DNA from: a virus
IMG/VR virus record: IMGVR_UViG_3300046512_000126
Span: 1 to 50,962 of that record
Strand: one strand, 5' to 3'
DNA length: 50,962 bases
The notes beneath the pieces were generated by a model. The model made no database searches, was not told where the DNA came from, and saw only the letters and a list, made by a program, of their open reading frames with translations. Positions 32,601-36,740 of this stretch are shown here, one piece after another (position 1 is the first letter of the stretch; each line of letters begins with the position of its first letter). The position numbers and the translations under genes were made by a program.

Positions 32601-33382
32601 TGCGGCACCATGAGGTTTGCAGCCCATGCTGTGCTGTCGAAGTCAGGCTCAACACTTGGGCGACGGGCTGGAAACTGGCGAACGTTGCTGGCCGATGCTT
32701 CGTCACGCTTGACCCACTTCACCAAAAGGCTCACCCATGACGCCTGTGTTTCACAGCGCCCAGATGCCGAGTAGTGACAGACGAATGATGCGGTTGCCTC
32801 AGGGGTGAAGCGGTCAACAGGTATCGCCATGCGCAGCGCGTACGCTTTCAGAAGCTTCTGGTCAGGAACCCAGTCGAGGCTCATCTCGGTCGGAAGCTTT
32901 GGGTCGACAAAATTTTCCTGATCCGCGCCTTGAGTGTTGTGTTGATCTTCTCCATTCCCTTCCCCTTCCCTTCCGGGGGTGAGGACTCGACTACCATTCG
33001 ACGACTCCTCGTCGAGTACTCGACTACCACTCGGCGAGCTTTCGTCAGGGCCTCCGATAAAAGCAGGGTATTTGAACGTGCGCTTGTCGATTTTCTGGTG
33101 CCGCCAGCCGCGCACATGCAGGTAGGTTTTTCCCTCTACCGAGTACAGGGCAATCAGTTCGGATGACTGCAGCTCGCCCAGCAGGCCATCAACCGCATCA
33201 ACAGTAATGTCGTCGCCAGGGAACACGAGGGCCTTAATGGTACGAGGCGACAGTGGGTGATTACCGCCGTCGTCGCAGAAGTTCCAGATGCCGATGAACA
33301 GGAGGCGCGCCAGTGGCGAGCAGGACATCACCTGCTCGCTCGACCAGAACTCAGGCTTGACCGTACGTATGCGGGCCATCAT
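32597..33382 (-). CDS. O: O-like replication initiator
   Basis: This 261-residue protein has an N-terminal winged-helix initiator domain (MARIRTVKPEFWSSEQV, LARLLFIGIWNFCDDGG, IKALVFPGDD). A Ser/Arg-rich linker with a repeated SGSRVL-type peptide (about residues 115-135) follows, then a DnaT-like C-terminal domain (residues about 165-245; FTPEATASFVCHYSASG, SWVSLLVKWVKRD). The linker DNA carries repeats that may be the origin. Start and stop overlap rha and P, respectively. Confidence 0.85.
   Translation of the reverse strand: MMARIRTVKPEFWSSEQVMSCSPLARLLFIGIWNFCDDGGNHPLSPRTIKALVFPGDDITVDAVDGLLGELQSSELIALYSVEGKTYLHVRGWRHQKIDKRTFKYPAFIGGPDESSPSGSRVLDEESSNGSRVLTPGREGEGNGEDQHNTQGADQENFVDPKLPTEMSLDWVPDQKLLKAYALRMAIPVDRFTPEATASFVCHYSASGRCETQASWVSLLVKWVKRDEASASNVRQFPARRPSVEPDFDSTAWAANLMVPQ
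32985..33037. repeat. ori: Direct repeats in the O gene, candidate replication origin
   Basis: A 20-bp unit (ACTCGACTACCAYTCGRCGA) is present at 32985-33004 and 33018-33037, 33 bp apart. Between them, CTCGTCGAGT is an inverted partial copy, and CGACGA-N4-TCGTCG makes a palindrome. Lambda's origin consists of initiator-binding iterons inside the O gene, and the repeats fall in the same linker segment here. A pyrimidine-rich tract lies next to them at 32950-32975. Confidence 0.55.
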
Positions 33383-34191
33383 GGACGTCCTTTGCCGATA
33401 AGCTCGGCAAGCTCAAGGAAACGATCCACATACCAGTGAGGCTGCGTCTCGCGAGGGGATTGGGGGCTGGTGAGGTTCTTGCCGTAGGCGAGGCCCTTTT
33501 CAGTCACCGACCAGAACGGGACTGTTACCTGCTTGGAGTTCTTTCGAGTCATGGTCTTCAGGTAACCAGCAGCCTCAAGGCGCTGATTGAAAGCGATGAC
33601 AGAACCACCCAGGCCGAAGTCCTTCAGCAGTGCTGTTGCAGATTTGGTGGGCATGGAAGAGCCGCCAATGGCATCCGGCGCGGCGTCGATGGCATAGCCT
33701 GGGAGAAACTTCGGATCAAGGCCGTTGTTCTCGGCGATCTTCGTCAGCATGAGCATCTGGCTGGACGGCGCAGGCTTCAGCAGGCGGGTGAAGCACTCCA
33801 TGATGGCAATCTCGCCGATCACCTTGGTTCCATTCGCCGTGACGGCTTCGCGTGACGCGGCTTTCTCTTCAAGCTCACGCCAGCGACGAACGACCGCATA
33901 ACGCATGCGTGCGCTATATCCGGTCATGAGGGTGTCGGTCAGGTCGCGGTCAAGGTGAAATGCGGTTGTGTATCCGCGCGCGTCTTTCTCCTCAGAAAGA
34001 TGGCCCAAAATTGGACCATCTTTTTCGAGATCGGAAATCATGTCGCGGATGTCACGGATCACGTGCTTGTGAGCCTTACGGGTGACGCTGGCGATTTCCT
34101 TCGATGACATCGTGCGCGCCACGTTTTCGTGATTAGCAAAATGTGGCGCGGGCCGGTTCAGGGCCTGTACATCGTGATTCTGTGTGTGCAT
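33379..34191 (-). CDS. rha: Rha family phage regulator
   Basis: This 270-residue protein has an N-terminal Rha domain (MSSKEIASVTRKAHKHVIRDIRDM, abbreviated 'S-x-x-IA-x-x-T-x-K-x-H-x-x-V-x-R-D', and GYTTAFHLDRDLTDTLMTGY). A C-terminal winged-helix-like part (LLKDFGLGGSVIAFNQRLEAAGYL) resembles KilA-C/antirepressor-type tails. Rha proteins affect phage growth in IHF-deficient hosts. The ATG at 34191 is chosen over one eight codons upstream. Confidence 0.83.
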   Translation of the reverse strand: MHTQNHDVQALNRPAPHFANHENVARTMSSKEIASVTRKAHKHVIRDIRDMISDLEKDGPILGHLSEEKDARGYTTAFHLDRDLTDTLMTGYSARMRYAVVRRWRELEEKAASREAVTANGTKVIGEIAIMECFTRLLKPAPSSQMLMLTKIAENNGLDPKFLPGYAIDAAPDAIGGSSMPTKSATALLKDFGLGGSVIAFNQRLEAAGYLKTMTRKNSKQVTVPFWSVTEKGLAYGKNLTSPQSPRETQPHWYVDRFLELAELIGKGRP

Positions 34192-34225
34192 AATCAGCTC
34201 CAGTACGTTGTGCAAACAGCTGTAG

Positions 34226-34784: not shown

Positions 34785-34961
34785 CTACGCGGCTTGAGTC
34801 TTCTGCTCAGCCTTCAGTGCGCCCTGGGTGATTCGCTCGATTTGGTACTGGCGGAGCTCAGGCACGACGTCCCATTGGCGGACTGCCTCATAGGTCACGC
34901 TGATTGCCTTTGCGAGCGCCGAAACGGAGCCGAAATGTTGGATCGCTTGTGTTTTGGTCAT
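34785..34961 (-). CDS. cro: Cro-like repressor
   Basis: This 58-residue protein has a helix-turn-helix (TQAIQHFGSVSALAKAISVT, then YEAVRQWDVVPELRQYQIERI) of the short Cro/YdaS type. The ATG is preceded by a near-perfect AAAGGAGGT. An upstream in-frame start lies inside the operator and is not used. It is the first gene from pR, divergent from the repressor, and would shut off repressor transcription in lytic growth. Confidence 0.88.
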   Translation of the reverse strand: MTKTQAIQHFGSVSALAKAISVTYEAVRQWDVVPELRQYQIERITQGALKAEQKTQAA

Positions 34962-34980: not shown

Positions 34981-35036
34981 TTCATATTCAAGCATGCTTG
35001 TGTTTGCAAGGCAAGCATGCTTGACAAGCTTCCTTG
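34981..35036. promoter_or_regulatory. OR operators and PR promoter
   Basis: CAAGCATGCTTG, a perfect 12-bp palindrome, occurs at 34989-35000 and 35012-35023. A degenerate copy (CAAGCTTCCTTG) is at 35025-35036. On the minus strand, TTGCAA (35004-35009) and TATGAA (34981-34986) form a PR promoter with a 17-bp spacer that contains the first operator. The repressor gene starts at 35049 on the other side. Confidence 0.85.
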
Positions 35037-35048
35037 TAGATTGCTCGC

Positions 35049-35900
35049 ATGAAAATTACTGATCGAATTACGAAGCTCGTCCTTGCGCGAAAGCCCGAGA
35101 TAGGCGCGCGCGGGTTCAAGCGTGACATAGCGACCACATGCGGAGTCAGCTATGAGGCTGTGCGCCAGTGGTTTGCCGGTGATACCGGAAACATTAAGAA
35201 TGAGAATCTCAGCGCAATCGCCGAGGGATACGACACGACTGTAGATTGGCTGCTTTCAGGAAAGGGCGAGCCGCCGCGCCGATCAATCCCGGGCAAGGCA
35301 ACAGTAGAACCAACCAAATCTGCTGCCGACATGGTTCAGCAAATGCTGGCCAAGCACGGAAAGAATCTTTCAGATGATGCTCGTAGCAAGATCGCTGCGG
35401 CAGTTGAAGAAACTGCGACTGAGGTCAAATCGGGCAATGTGATCACTGCTGATTTTTCTGGCTCGCGCGTCAGGTCGGGAGAAATCTTGATTCCTCACTA
35501 CGATATTCGCGGCTCGCAAGGTCACGGCCAGGTGCCTCCTGAATACGCAGAGACGCTCAGGAATTTAATCGTGCGTGAGGATGTGCTGCTGGAAAAGGGA
35601 GTCACGTACACGTCGGGCAGCGCCCTATCTGTTATCACTGGATGGGGCCAGAGCATGGAGGGAACCATCAACGACAAGGATCCGGTGGTCGTTGACAGGG
35701 GTGTGAACGAGTTCGTCGGCGAAGGTATTTACGTCGTAACCTGGCATGAGCACCTCTACATCAAAAGACTCCAGGTCTTGGACGAAGATCACTTCTGGCT
35801 GATATCGGATAACCCGAAAAGCAAGGATCAGCAGGCCCGGATGGACGATGTGACCATCCATGCGAAGGTTCTGCTGGTTCTGAACGTGAAAAAGGTCTGA
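35049..35900 (+). CDS. cI: CI-like prophage repressor, XRE-S24
   Basis: This 283-residue protein has an N-terminal helix-turn-helix (FKRDIATTCGVSYEAVRQWF, residues 23-42) and a C-terminal S24/LexA-like domain with Ser202 in GWGQSMEG and Lys239 in LYIKRLQ. It should bind the CAAGCATGCTTG operators and keep lysogeny. There is no canonical Ala-Gly or Cys-Gly cleavage site in the linker (the region near DIRGSQGHGQ is the best candidate), so self-cleavage is not certain. Confidence 0.92.
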   Translation: MKITDRITKLVLARKPEIGARGFKRDIATTCGVSYEAVRQWFAGDTGNIKNENLSAIAEGYDTTVDWLLSGKGEPPRRSIPGKATVEPTKSAADMVQQMLAKHGKNLSDDARSKIAAAVEETATEVKSGNVITADFSGSRVRSGEILIPHYDIRGSQGHGQVPPEYAETLRNLIVREDVLLEKGVTYTSGSALSVITGWGQSMEGTINDKDPVVVDRGVNEFVGEGIYVVTWHEHLYIKRLQVLDEDHFWLISDNPKSKDQQARMDDVTIHAKVLLVLNVKKV

Positions 35901-35917
35901 CGCTGTTTTGTAAAATA

Positions 35918-35942
35918 GCCCGCCAACAGAGCGGGCTTTTTT
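35918..35942 (+). terminator. Terminator after cI
   Basis: GCCCGC pairs with GCGGGC around a 7-base loop and is followed by TTTTTT. It is 18 bases after the cI stop and 8 before the DUF1654 stop on the other strand, so it separates the two convergent genes. The minus-strand T-run is weak. Confidence 0.88.
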
Positions 35943-35949
35943 ATACCCC

Positions 35950-36267
35950 TCAGAACGGCGCTGGCTCGTCGACCGTGTCCATGTCTTCGGCACGAATCTC
36001 GCGATCATTGTCGCTAGCCGCCTCCCACTCCAGTGTTATCGAATCATCCTCGTCGTTGATCGTCATGTCGATCCCGTCCGTATCCGATAGCGCTGTCAGC
36101 AGCTCATCCCACTCCCTCTGCCCGTCCGTGTCCAACCGGTGAATCGTCACCCTCCGATCAAGCTGTGCGATCGGGTGATTGATCATGTTCGACACCCTAA
36201 TTGTTAGTCGCTCCATGCCACTCATTGGCTTCGGCCCTGCGTCCTTTTTTCTTTCCTGCTTTGCCAT
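35950..36267 (-). CDS. DUF1654-like protein under SOS control
   Basis: This 105-residue protein resembles Pseudomonas DUF1654 proteins: a basic start, MERLTIRVSNMINHPIAQLD, TIHRLDTDGQREWDELLTAL, and an acidic end (DGIDMTINDEDDSITLEWE). The ATG has AGGAGGT upstream, and a LexA box lies 21 bases farther. The gene faces cI and occupies the place of lambda rexAB between cI and OL. Its function is not known to me. Confidence 0.78.
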   Translation of the reverse strand: MAKQERKKDAGPKPMSGMERLTIRVSNMINHPIAQLDRRVTIHRLDTDGQREWDELLTALSDTDGIDMTINDEDDSITLEWEAASDNDREIRAEDMDTVDEPAPF

Positions 36268-36287
36268 AAATTACCTCCTGTTTGATA

Positions 36288-36303
36288 CTGTATATCCATA
36301 CAG
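36288..36303. promoter_or_regulatory. LexA (SOS) box upstream of the DUF1654 gene
   Basis: CTGTATATCCATACAG keeps the CTG-N10-CAG ends and most inner bases of a LexA box. It is 21 bases upstream of the DUF1654 start, overlapping a likely minus-strand promoter in A/T-rich DNA. It also lies only 16 bases from the first OL operator. Confidence 0.88.
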
Positions 36304-36318
36304 TACAAAAAATAAATA

Positions 36319-36373
36319 CAAGCTTGCTTGCATTCAATACGCAAGCATGCTTTTATTAATGCAAGCCGACTTG
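36319..36373. promoter_or_regulatory. OL operator cluster (PL region)
   Basis: Three relatives of the OR palindrome occur: CAAGCTTGCTTG (36319-36330), CAAGCATGCTTT (36342-36353) and CAAGCCGACTTG (36362-36373). The first two start 23 bp apart, the same spacing as in OR. The A/T-rich DNA around 36351-36360 (TTTTATTAAT) may be the -10 of a rightward PL promoter; the -35 is not clear. Confidence 0.78.
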
Positions 36374-36399: not shown

Positions 36400-36426
36400 G
36401 GGCCTAATCAAGGCCCGCGCTCTTTA
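36400..36426 (+). promoter_or_regulatory. nut-like leader: hairpin and boxA
   Basis: GGGCCT/AGGCCC forms a 6-bp stem with a 5-base loop (36400-36416), and CGCTCTTTA (36418-36426) equals the boxA consensus bound by NusB/S10. Both lie in the untranslated leader of the pL operon, 30 bases past OL. In lambda boxA precedes boxB, whereas here the hairpin comes first; a weaker stem (CTTA/TAAG) follows near 36458. Bases 36304-36611 otherwise hold no clear gene. Confidence 0.52.
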
Positions 36427-36611: not shown

Positions 36612-36740
36612 ATGAGCGTGGTGGAGACGGCCGCAAGGCAGCCAAGGAAACCGTGGCAGGTAACGGAACCCAGCAAGACAGATTTCACTGGCTGGCCTTG
36701 GAGACAGGGCCAGACGGGAAATCAACCGGAGGGCGTGTGA
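36612..36740 (+). CDS. First small ORF of the early-left operon
   Basis: This 42-residue ORF begins MSVVETAARQPRKPW with AGAGGA upstream. Its TGA overlaps the ATG of the next gene by one base (TGATG), suggesting coupling. A GTG at 36528 would give 70 residues but has no good ribosome site. The peptide is basic and Trp/Pro-rich near its end. The function is unknown. Confidence 0.5.
   Translation: MSVVETAARQPRKPWQVTEPSKTDFTGWPWRQGQTGNQPEGV

Follow-up and report, generated by a model that had tools for sequence, protein, structure and literature searches.

Predicted cI and Cro operators at both ends of a lambda-type immunity region, with a LexA-type box inside OL

Copies of a 12-bp palindrome lie in two clusters on either side of a repressor gene in the 50,962-nucleotide stretch of viral DNA analysed here (the window), and the locus raises the question of which proteins read these sites and which promoters they would control. 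Taken as a whole, the sequence evidence points to a temperate phage with Pseudomonas-like hosts and to this locus as its lambda-type immunity region, in which the sites would be the operators of the repressor and Cro and the OL cluster would be joined to the SOS response; we assign this reading a probability of about 90%. The genes around the first cluster are as follows.

33379-34215, minus strand: Rha/Ant-type antirepressor-like gene (PF09669), downstream of cro
34785..34961, minus strand: cro, 58 aa, P22_Cro family (PF14549, E 1.7e-25), recognition helix TYEAVRQW
35049..35900, plus strand: cI repressor, XRE HTH (HTH_3) plus Peptidase_S24, helix SYEAVRQWF
35917..35944, plus strand: intrinsic terminator behind cI

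The original prediction had placed two exact copies of CAAGCATGCTTG and a degenerate third copy between cro and cI, with three relatives 1.3 kb away beyond cI, and had the first two sites of each cluster starting 23 bp apart. Coordinates and neighbouring genes were confirmed on re-examination, and the 23-bp interval is kept in relatives of the phage. The OR cluster lies between cro and cI and the OL cluster beyond cI.

34989-35000: OR1, CAAGCATGCTTG, exact, over the PR -10 and spacer
35012-35023: OR2, CAAGCATGCTTG, exact, over the PR -35, starting 23 bp from OR1
35025-35036: OR3, CAAGCTTCCTTG, abutting the cI -10, starting 13 bp from OR2
36319-36330: OL1, CAAGCTTGCTTG
36342-36353: OL2, CAAGCATGCTTT, starting 23 bp from OL1
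36362-36373: OL3, CAAGCCGACTTG, starting 20 bp from OL2 and covering the PL start

The pattern CAAGN4CTTG has five matches in the 51-kb window where 1.27 were expected, all five of them being OR or OL sites, and a count of five was reached in none of 100 shuffles of the window. A cI-based scan gave 80 viral-contig loci and 57 bacterial-genome loci, nearly all of them Pseudomonas. In loci with an HTH of the window type, OR reads CAAGCATGCTTG - 11 bp - CAAGCATGCTTG - 1 bp - CAAGCnnnCTTG - TAGATT - 6 to 8 nt - ATG, and the OL consensus is CAAGcgTGCTTG - 11 bp - CaAGCATGCTTT - 8 bp - CAAGycgaCTTG; the spacings (23/13 bp in OR and 23/20 bp in OL, start to start) are fixed in about 70 related loci. 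Column conservation in the distinct sequences (63 for OR, 76 for OL) reaches 2.00, 2.00 and 1.65 bits per base for OR1, OR2 and OR3, the first two values arising partly by construction since the OR set was chosen by an exact OR1-OR2 pair, and 1.76, 1.94 and 1.63 bits for OL1, OL2 and OL3, with variable flanks (0.32 bits per base in the 60 bases to the right of OL3). Loci selected by protein give the same picture of OR1 and OR2 as the pair-selected set. Ten variants of OR3 are present, nearly all of the form CAAGCnnnCTTG, with near-invariant half-sites and a variable centre. Origin of the cluster by chance repetition of words is favoured by the looser count, in which the 12-mer with at most two mismatches occurs 8 times in the window and 3.7 times in shuffles, only a mild enrichment, but the placement of all five strict matches at OR and OL, together with the sequence and spacing conserved in dozens of loci, rules this out for practical purposes.

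Which protein reads the sites can be judged from the helices and from natural exchanges of the DNA-binding domain. Within the window, YEAVRQW is confined to two places, 35151 (cI) and 34892 (Cro); SYEAVRQWF is present in 94/94 cIs of the window HTH type and in no cI with another HTH, and the Cro proteins beside window-type cIs carry YEAVRQW. In loci L078-L084 the C-terminal domain of cI is 75-76% identical to that of the window, the HTH is 24-25% identical, and CAAGCATGCTTG is absent, while in L045-L068, L070-L073, L075 and L077 the HTH is 83-97% identical, the sites are present and the C-terminal domain is, in most, only 41-50% identical. Across 140 loci, at least two exact sites were found in 87 of the 93 with the window HTH versus 0 of the 47 with another HTH (Fisher p 5e-31, for loci that are related and not independent). 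The six exceptions comprise four tandem-HTH cIs (L069, L074, L076 and L098), one locus with degenerate sites (L112) and one with a single exact site (L140). By these comparisons, the sites track the DNA-binding domain of cI and not its C-terminus.

The same association was recovered from the opposite direction, in a blind reverse scan that used the OR triple alone against 2.9 million viral contigs and gave 98 stretches, 80 of them listed; among these 80, a YEAVRQW cI stands directly behind the sites in all 80, and in 76 a YEAVRQW Cro flanks them opposite cI, many of the contigs being already among the first 80 loci. Counting the palindrome across whole genomes had been proposed as a check, with many unrelated copies as the outcome that would refute the reading. 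The count does not refute it: in nine of ten whole Pseudomonas genomes the 12-mer is present in exactly two copies, 23 bp apart at the prophage OR, the tenth having three. Perfect palindromes repeated near gene starts would also be expected of host-regulator sites or of a replication iteron, in place of sites for the phage repressor, but the 12-mer is absent elsewhere in those nine genomes, the sites change with the cI HTH, and they always stand directly before a YEAVRQW cI, which makes this explanation very improbable; a host regulator was rejected on the genome counts and the HTH tracking.

The HTH swaps, the common helix, the reverse scan and the genome counts together uphold the proposal of paired OR and OL clusters for the phage repressor and, probably, for Cro. 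The identical recognition helix and its covariation with the sites strongly support the view, drawn from sequence, that cI and probably also Cro read the same operator, CAAGN4CTTG. The window Cro scores 89 bits against PF14549, above the curated cut-off of 30.2, and P22 Cro, of the same family, aligns with it at about 44%; the helix of the window phage, YEAVRQW, sets it apart from P22, and a different operator is expected. No CAAGN4CTTG was found in the stretch examined of YA3, which has a related cI and Cro with the helices YPAVSQW and YAAVQQW. A sequence search returned no solved structural relative of cI, and the predicted cI model, being of low confidence (pLDDT 65), was set aside.

Loci with other HTHs have the same layout with other operator words at both OR and OL. 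These words include ACCATCGGT-type ones in L078-L084, TAAGN4CTTA in phi297 and L122, and TTTAGC / GCTAAA in L123, L125, L127, L128 and L136; they were read by eye, an automatic palindrome finder having given few candidates. This pattern suggests a joint exchange of the cI HTH, cro and the operators of both clusters, with the S24 domain and the neighbouring DUF1654 gene staying in place. In the four tandem-HTH loci a foreign XRE domain is fused before the YEAVRQWF HTH and the locus contains no CAAGCATGCTTG; their sites appear better described as TACAA-N7-TTGYA. Hybrid operators (CAAGC + AATTG) were considered for these cIs and rejected, as L124, which has the other HTH only, carries nearly the same site.

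Conservation was also used to locate the promoters, all of whose positions are placed from sequence and conserved columns; a generic promoter scan reported none of PR, PL and the leftward OL promoter. At OR the candidates are the following.

35014-35009 (-35 TTGCCT) and 34991-34986 (-10 TTGAAT), minus strand: conserved candidate for PR, 17-bp spacer, predicted +1 at about 34979
35037..35042, plus strand: candidate PRM -10, TAGATT, 6 nt before the cI ATG

The original prediction had PR with an operator in its 17-bp spacer. Such a pair does exist in the sequence (TTGCAA 35009-35004, 17 bp, TATGAA 34986-34981), but it falls in variable columns and was dropped, whereas TTGnyT-17-TTGAAT is the only conserved leftward pair at OR among the 63 distinct sequences. 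On the cI side, TA[GA]ATT is near-invariant; cI has no Shine-Dalgarno sequence and the PRM -10 stands immediately upstream of the start codon, so the cI mRNA is probably leaderless. The candidate PRM -35 region (35014-35019, AGCATG) falls inside OR2, and for this reason lambda-type activation of PRM from OR2 would not fit: the centre of OR2 lies near -42 of PRM in lambda and near -31 in the window phage.

Beyond cI, OL is accompanied by a second, leftward gene and by several predicted control elements.

35950..36267, minus strand: DUF1654 gene, 105 aa (PF07867, E 6.5e-19), convergent with cI
36288-36303: putative LexA-type SOS box, CTGTATATCCATACAG, over the start of the leftward OL promoter, from sequence and conservation
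36337-36332 (-35 TTGAAT) and 36314-36309 (-10 TATTTT), minus strand: candidate leftward OL promoter, with OL1 in its 17-bp spacer, pointing to DUF1654
36328-36333 (-35 TTGCAT) and 36351-36356 (-10 TTTTAT), plus strand: candidate PL, 17-bp spacer
36419..36426, plus strand: boxA-like element, GCTCTTTA, about 46 nt after OL3
36681..36723, plus strand: hairpin of 18 bp, GATTTCACTGGCTGGCCTTGGAGACAGGGCCAGACGGGAAATC, just before the Shine-Dalgarno sequence of the first PL gene

The columns of PL are mostly at 1.7-2.0 bits, and the ending of OL2 in CTTT may be a consequence of the PL -10. DUF1654 is the first leftward gene in 68/68 loci where OL was found. The LexA-type box stands 31 bp from the OL1 start in loci of the window HTH type with DUF1654, and loci with other HTHs nearly all have a LexA-like box before DUF1654 too, as does F116. 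Four loci (L112, L119, L120 and L141) have OL sites but neither DUF1654 nor a LexA-like box, and L141 keeps its OR sites as well; L140 and L141, in neither of which DUF1654 was found, encode cI-like proteins with the window HTH and no recognisable S24 domain. In L075 and L109, DUF1654 is followed by co-oriented umuD-like and umuC-like genes. We therefore describe OL, from sequence, as a putative joint cI/SOS node, and the LexA-type box and the DUF1654 promoter that appear to be built into it are an addition that the original prediction had missed. Near the start of the window, in the stretch 2266-2736, a further LexA-type box, CTGTATGTATATACAG, lies at 2721-2736 between a umuD-umuC-like pair on the minus strand, of which it is upstream, and an SRAP-like gene on the plus strand; the pair and the SRAP-like gene were assigned by eye from translations.

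In the PL leader, the boxA-like element is the sole copy in the window, with none found on the PR side in a scan of the window, and such an element is present in 67/75 related PL leaders, which suggests Nus-dependent antitermination of the PL transcript. The hairpin has mostly a GNRA-type loop, and 7 of its 18 pairs are changed on both sides, a covariation equalled in 0/500 shuffles. It occurs once in the window and is present in 55 related loci that span several HTH types; among named phage records it was found in 30, at a single place in each, and 29 of these are Pseudomonas phages. It has no match in Rfam.

From this arrangement a scheme of regulation can be proposed. cI and Cro would bind CAAGN4CTTG through the same helix, YEAVRQW. 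Repressor on OR1 and OR2 would cover PR, from which cro is transcribed, and the presumably weaker OR3, lying against the cI -10, would limit cI synthesis. Repressor on OL1-OL3 would cover the rightward PL and the leftward DUF1654 promoter at once, and the latter would also be covered at the LexA-type box, provided that LexA binds there. In the lysogen both clusters would be shut; after DNA damage LexA would leave the leftward promoter and loss of repressor would free PL and PR, presumably in that order.

S24 repressors are usually cleaved at an Ala-Gly pair. At this position the cI family has AMG (Met-Gly), which is family-wide, and the window SQG (Gln-Gly), while the catalytic Ser/Lys dyad of the S24 domain (S202/K239) is invariant; the YA3 repressor carries Ala-Gly. 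Five loci (L112, L119, L120, L140 and L141) have no DUF1654, and their S24 domain is different or absent. Together with the LexA-like box before DUF1654 in nearly every locus read, whatever its HTH, these observations would fit a scheme in which the SOS-made DUF1654 product is an antirepressor of a normally uncleavable S24 repressor and the LexA box is the induction switch. Its precedent is in the Gifsy phages of Salmonella, whose LexA-controlled genes have been shown to be antirepressors (PMC3121763). The two systems have in common a small phage gene under a LexA box, as predicted for the window phage, and a repressor without the usual cleavage pair. They differ in that antirepression has been demonstrated in Gifsy, where the LexA-controlled gene is found away from the immunity region (PMC3121763); the box of the window phage lies inside OL.

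Several points argue against this scheme. The Ser/Lys dyad is retained throughout the cI family, and F116 has a LexA box and DUF1654 beside an Ala-Gly repressor, which goes against its simple version. A rule by which Ala-Gly is absent only where DUF1654 is present was likewise rejected, F116 having both and AMG being family-wide. The DUF1654 protein is small and acidic with an EEPAPF-like C-terminus, of which the terminal PF is nearly invariant, and this tail resembles the C-terminal tip of SSB, MDFDDDIPF (PMC7913777), which would point to DNA-repair partners. A model of DUF1654 (pLDDT 75) gave no fold match in the PDB. In the open-access literature we found DUF1654 named in a phage-therapy study and no function for it, although a description may have been published. 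We regard the antirepressor scheme as unlikely. A broader synthesis, in which OL is an integrated lysogeny/SOS node whose LexA box and three operators at fixed spacing together control DUF1654, DUF1654 takes part in induction (by antirepression or, through its acidic PF tail, by SSB-dependent repair) beside a repressor without Ala-Gly, and immunity changes by joint replacement of the cI HTH, cro and the operators around a constant S24 domain, LexA box and DUF1654, we put forward only tentatively and hold to be doubtful as a whole.

Lambda CI loops OR and OL together over 2.3 kb (PMC3708714), and the original prediction allowed for looping here with a loop shorter than that of lambda. The OR2-OL1 distance of 1,307 bp in the window agrees with this, but among relatives the distance takes 61 distinct values from 1,131 to 5,337 bp, and the family as a whole does not share a shorter loop. 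As a possible sign of looping, the OR-OL distance was examined for helical phasing, and none is present (R 0.07, p about 0.75). OR and OL could instead both be cI/Cro operators that act independently, with no cI-mediated DNA loop, as would suit the freely varying and unphased distance, a self-sufficient OL covering both PL and the DUF1654 promoter, and the three loci (L119, L120 and L141) that lack DUF1654 and the LexA box, in which the OL1 centre is degenerate while OL2 and OL3 are kept. Kilobase loops, however, require no helical phasing, lambda CI does loop at 2.3 kb (PMC3708714), and the 23-bp pairing matched in both clusters would suit dimer pairs forming a higher-order complex; independent action is in our estimate close to an even bet, leaning slightly towards the negative. 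Between cI and DUF1654 the relatives have a slot for variable cargo that reaches about 4 kb, most of it transcribed together with cI; in the window the slot is empty. The genes found in it (for example in L045, L054, L072, L073 and L047) include RelA/SpoT-like, Beta_protein, IrrE-like M78 peptidase, DUF3800 and HATPase genes, and from its contents it looks like a slot for lysogenic conversion or defence.

With or without a loop, the region has the marks of the lambda-type immunity region that we favour: a divergent cI-like repressor and cro with operators between them, and, on the far side of cI, a second set of sites with that specificity at an early promoter, PL as placed by conservation and boxA. 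It further resembles lambda in having three operators each at OR and OL flanking cI, one repressor that would shut two lytic promoters, boxA in the PL leader, a probably leaderless cI mRNA and, in relatives of the window phage, cargo between cI and OL. It differs in having operators that start 23 and 13 bp apart in OR and 23 and 20 bp apart in OL, in the covering of the candidate PRM -35 by OR2, in the LexA-type box and the additional leftward promoter (for DUF1654) predicted within OL, and in an OR-OL distance of 1.1 to 5.3 kb across the family versus 2.3 kb in lambda (PMC3708714). Among named phages, the Pseudomonas phages D14O and YMC11/02/R656 have a cI that is 53% identical across 96% of its length; D14O shares the same OR and OL triples, a LexA-like box and DUF1654, and differs in having OR and OL 3.2 kb apart with extra genes. 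In the open-access literature we found no paper that names the operator in a phage, D14O and R656 included; the one paper retrieved concerns a human gene and has no bearing on it.

The lambda-like part of this region is of an ordinary kind; what is new is the predicted SOS site built into it. For an apparently unstudied family of Pseudomonas prophages the analysis provides a predicted operator code, with six sites per phage, that natural domain swaps make testable. Several immunity specificities are found on one common S24 domain, and each has matching operators in two places far apart; the family thus offers a direct way to study how a phage alters its immunity in both simultaneously. The constant position of the LexA-type box within OL suggests that in this family SOS input acts on OL itself, and not on the repressor alone.
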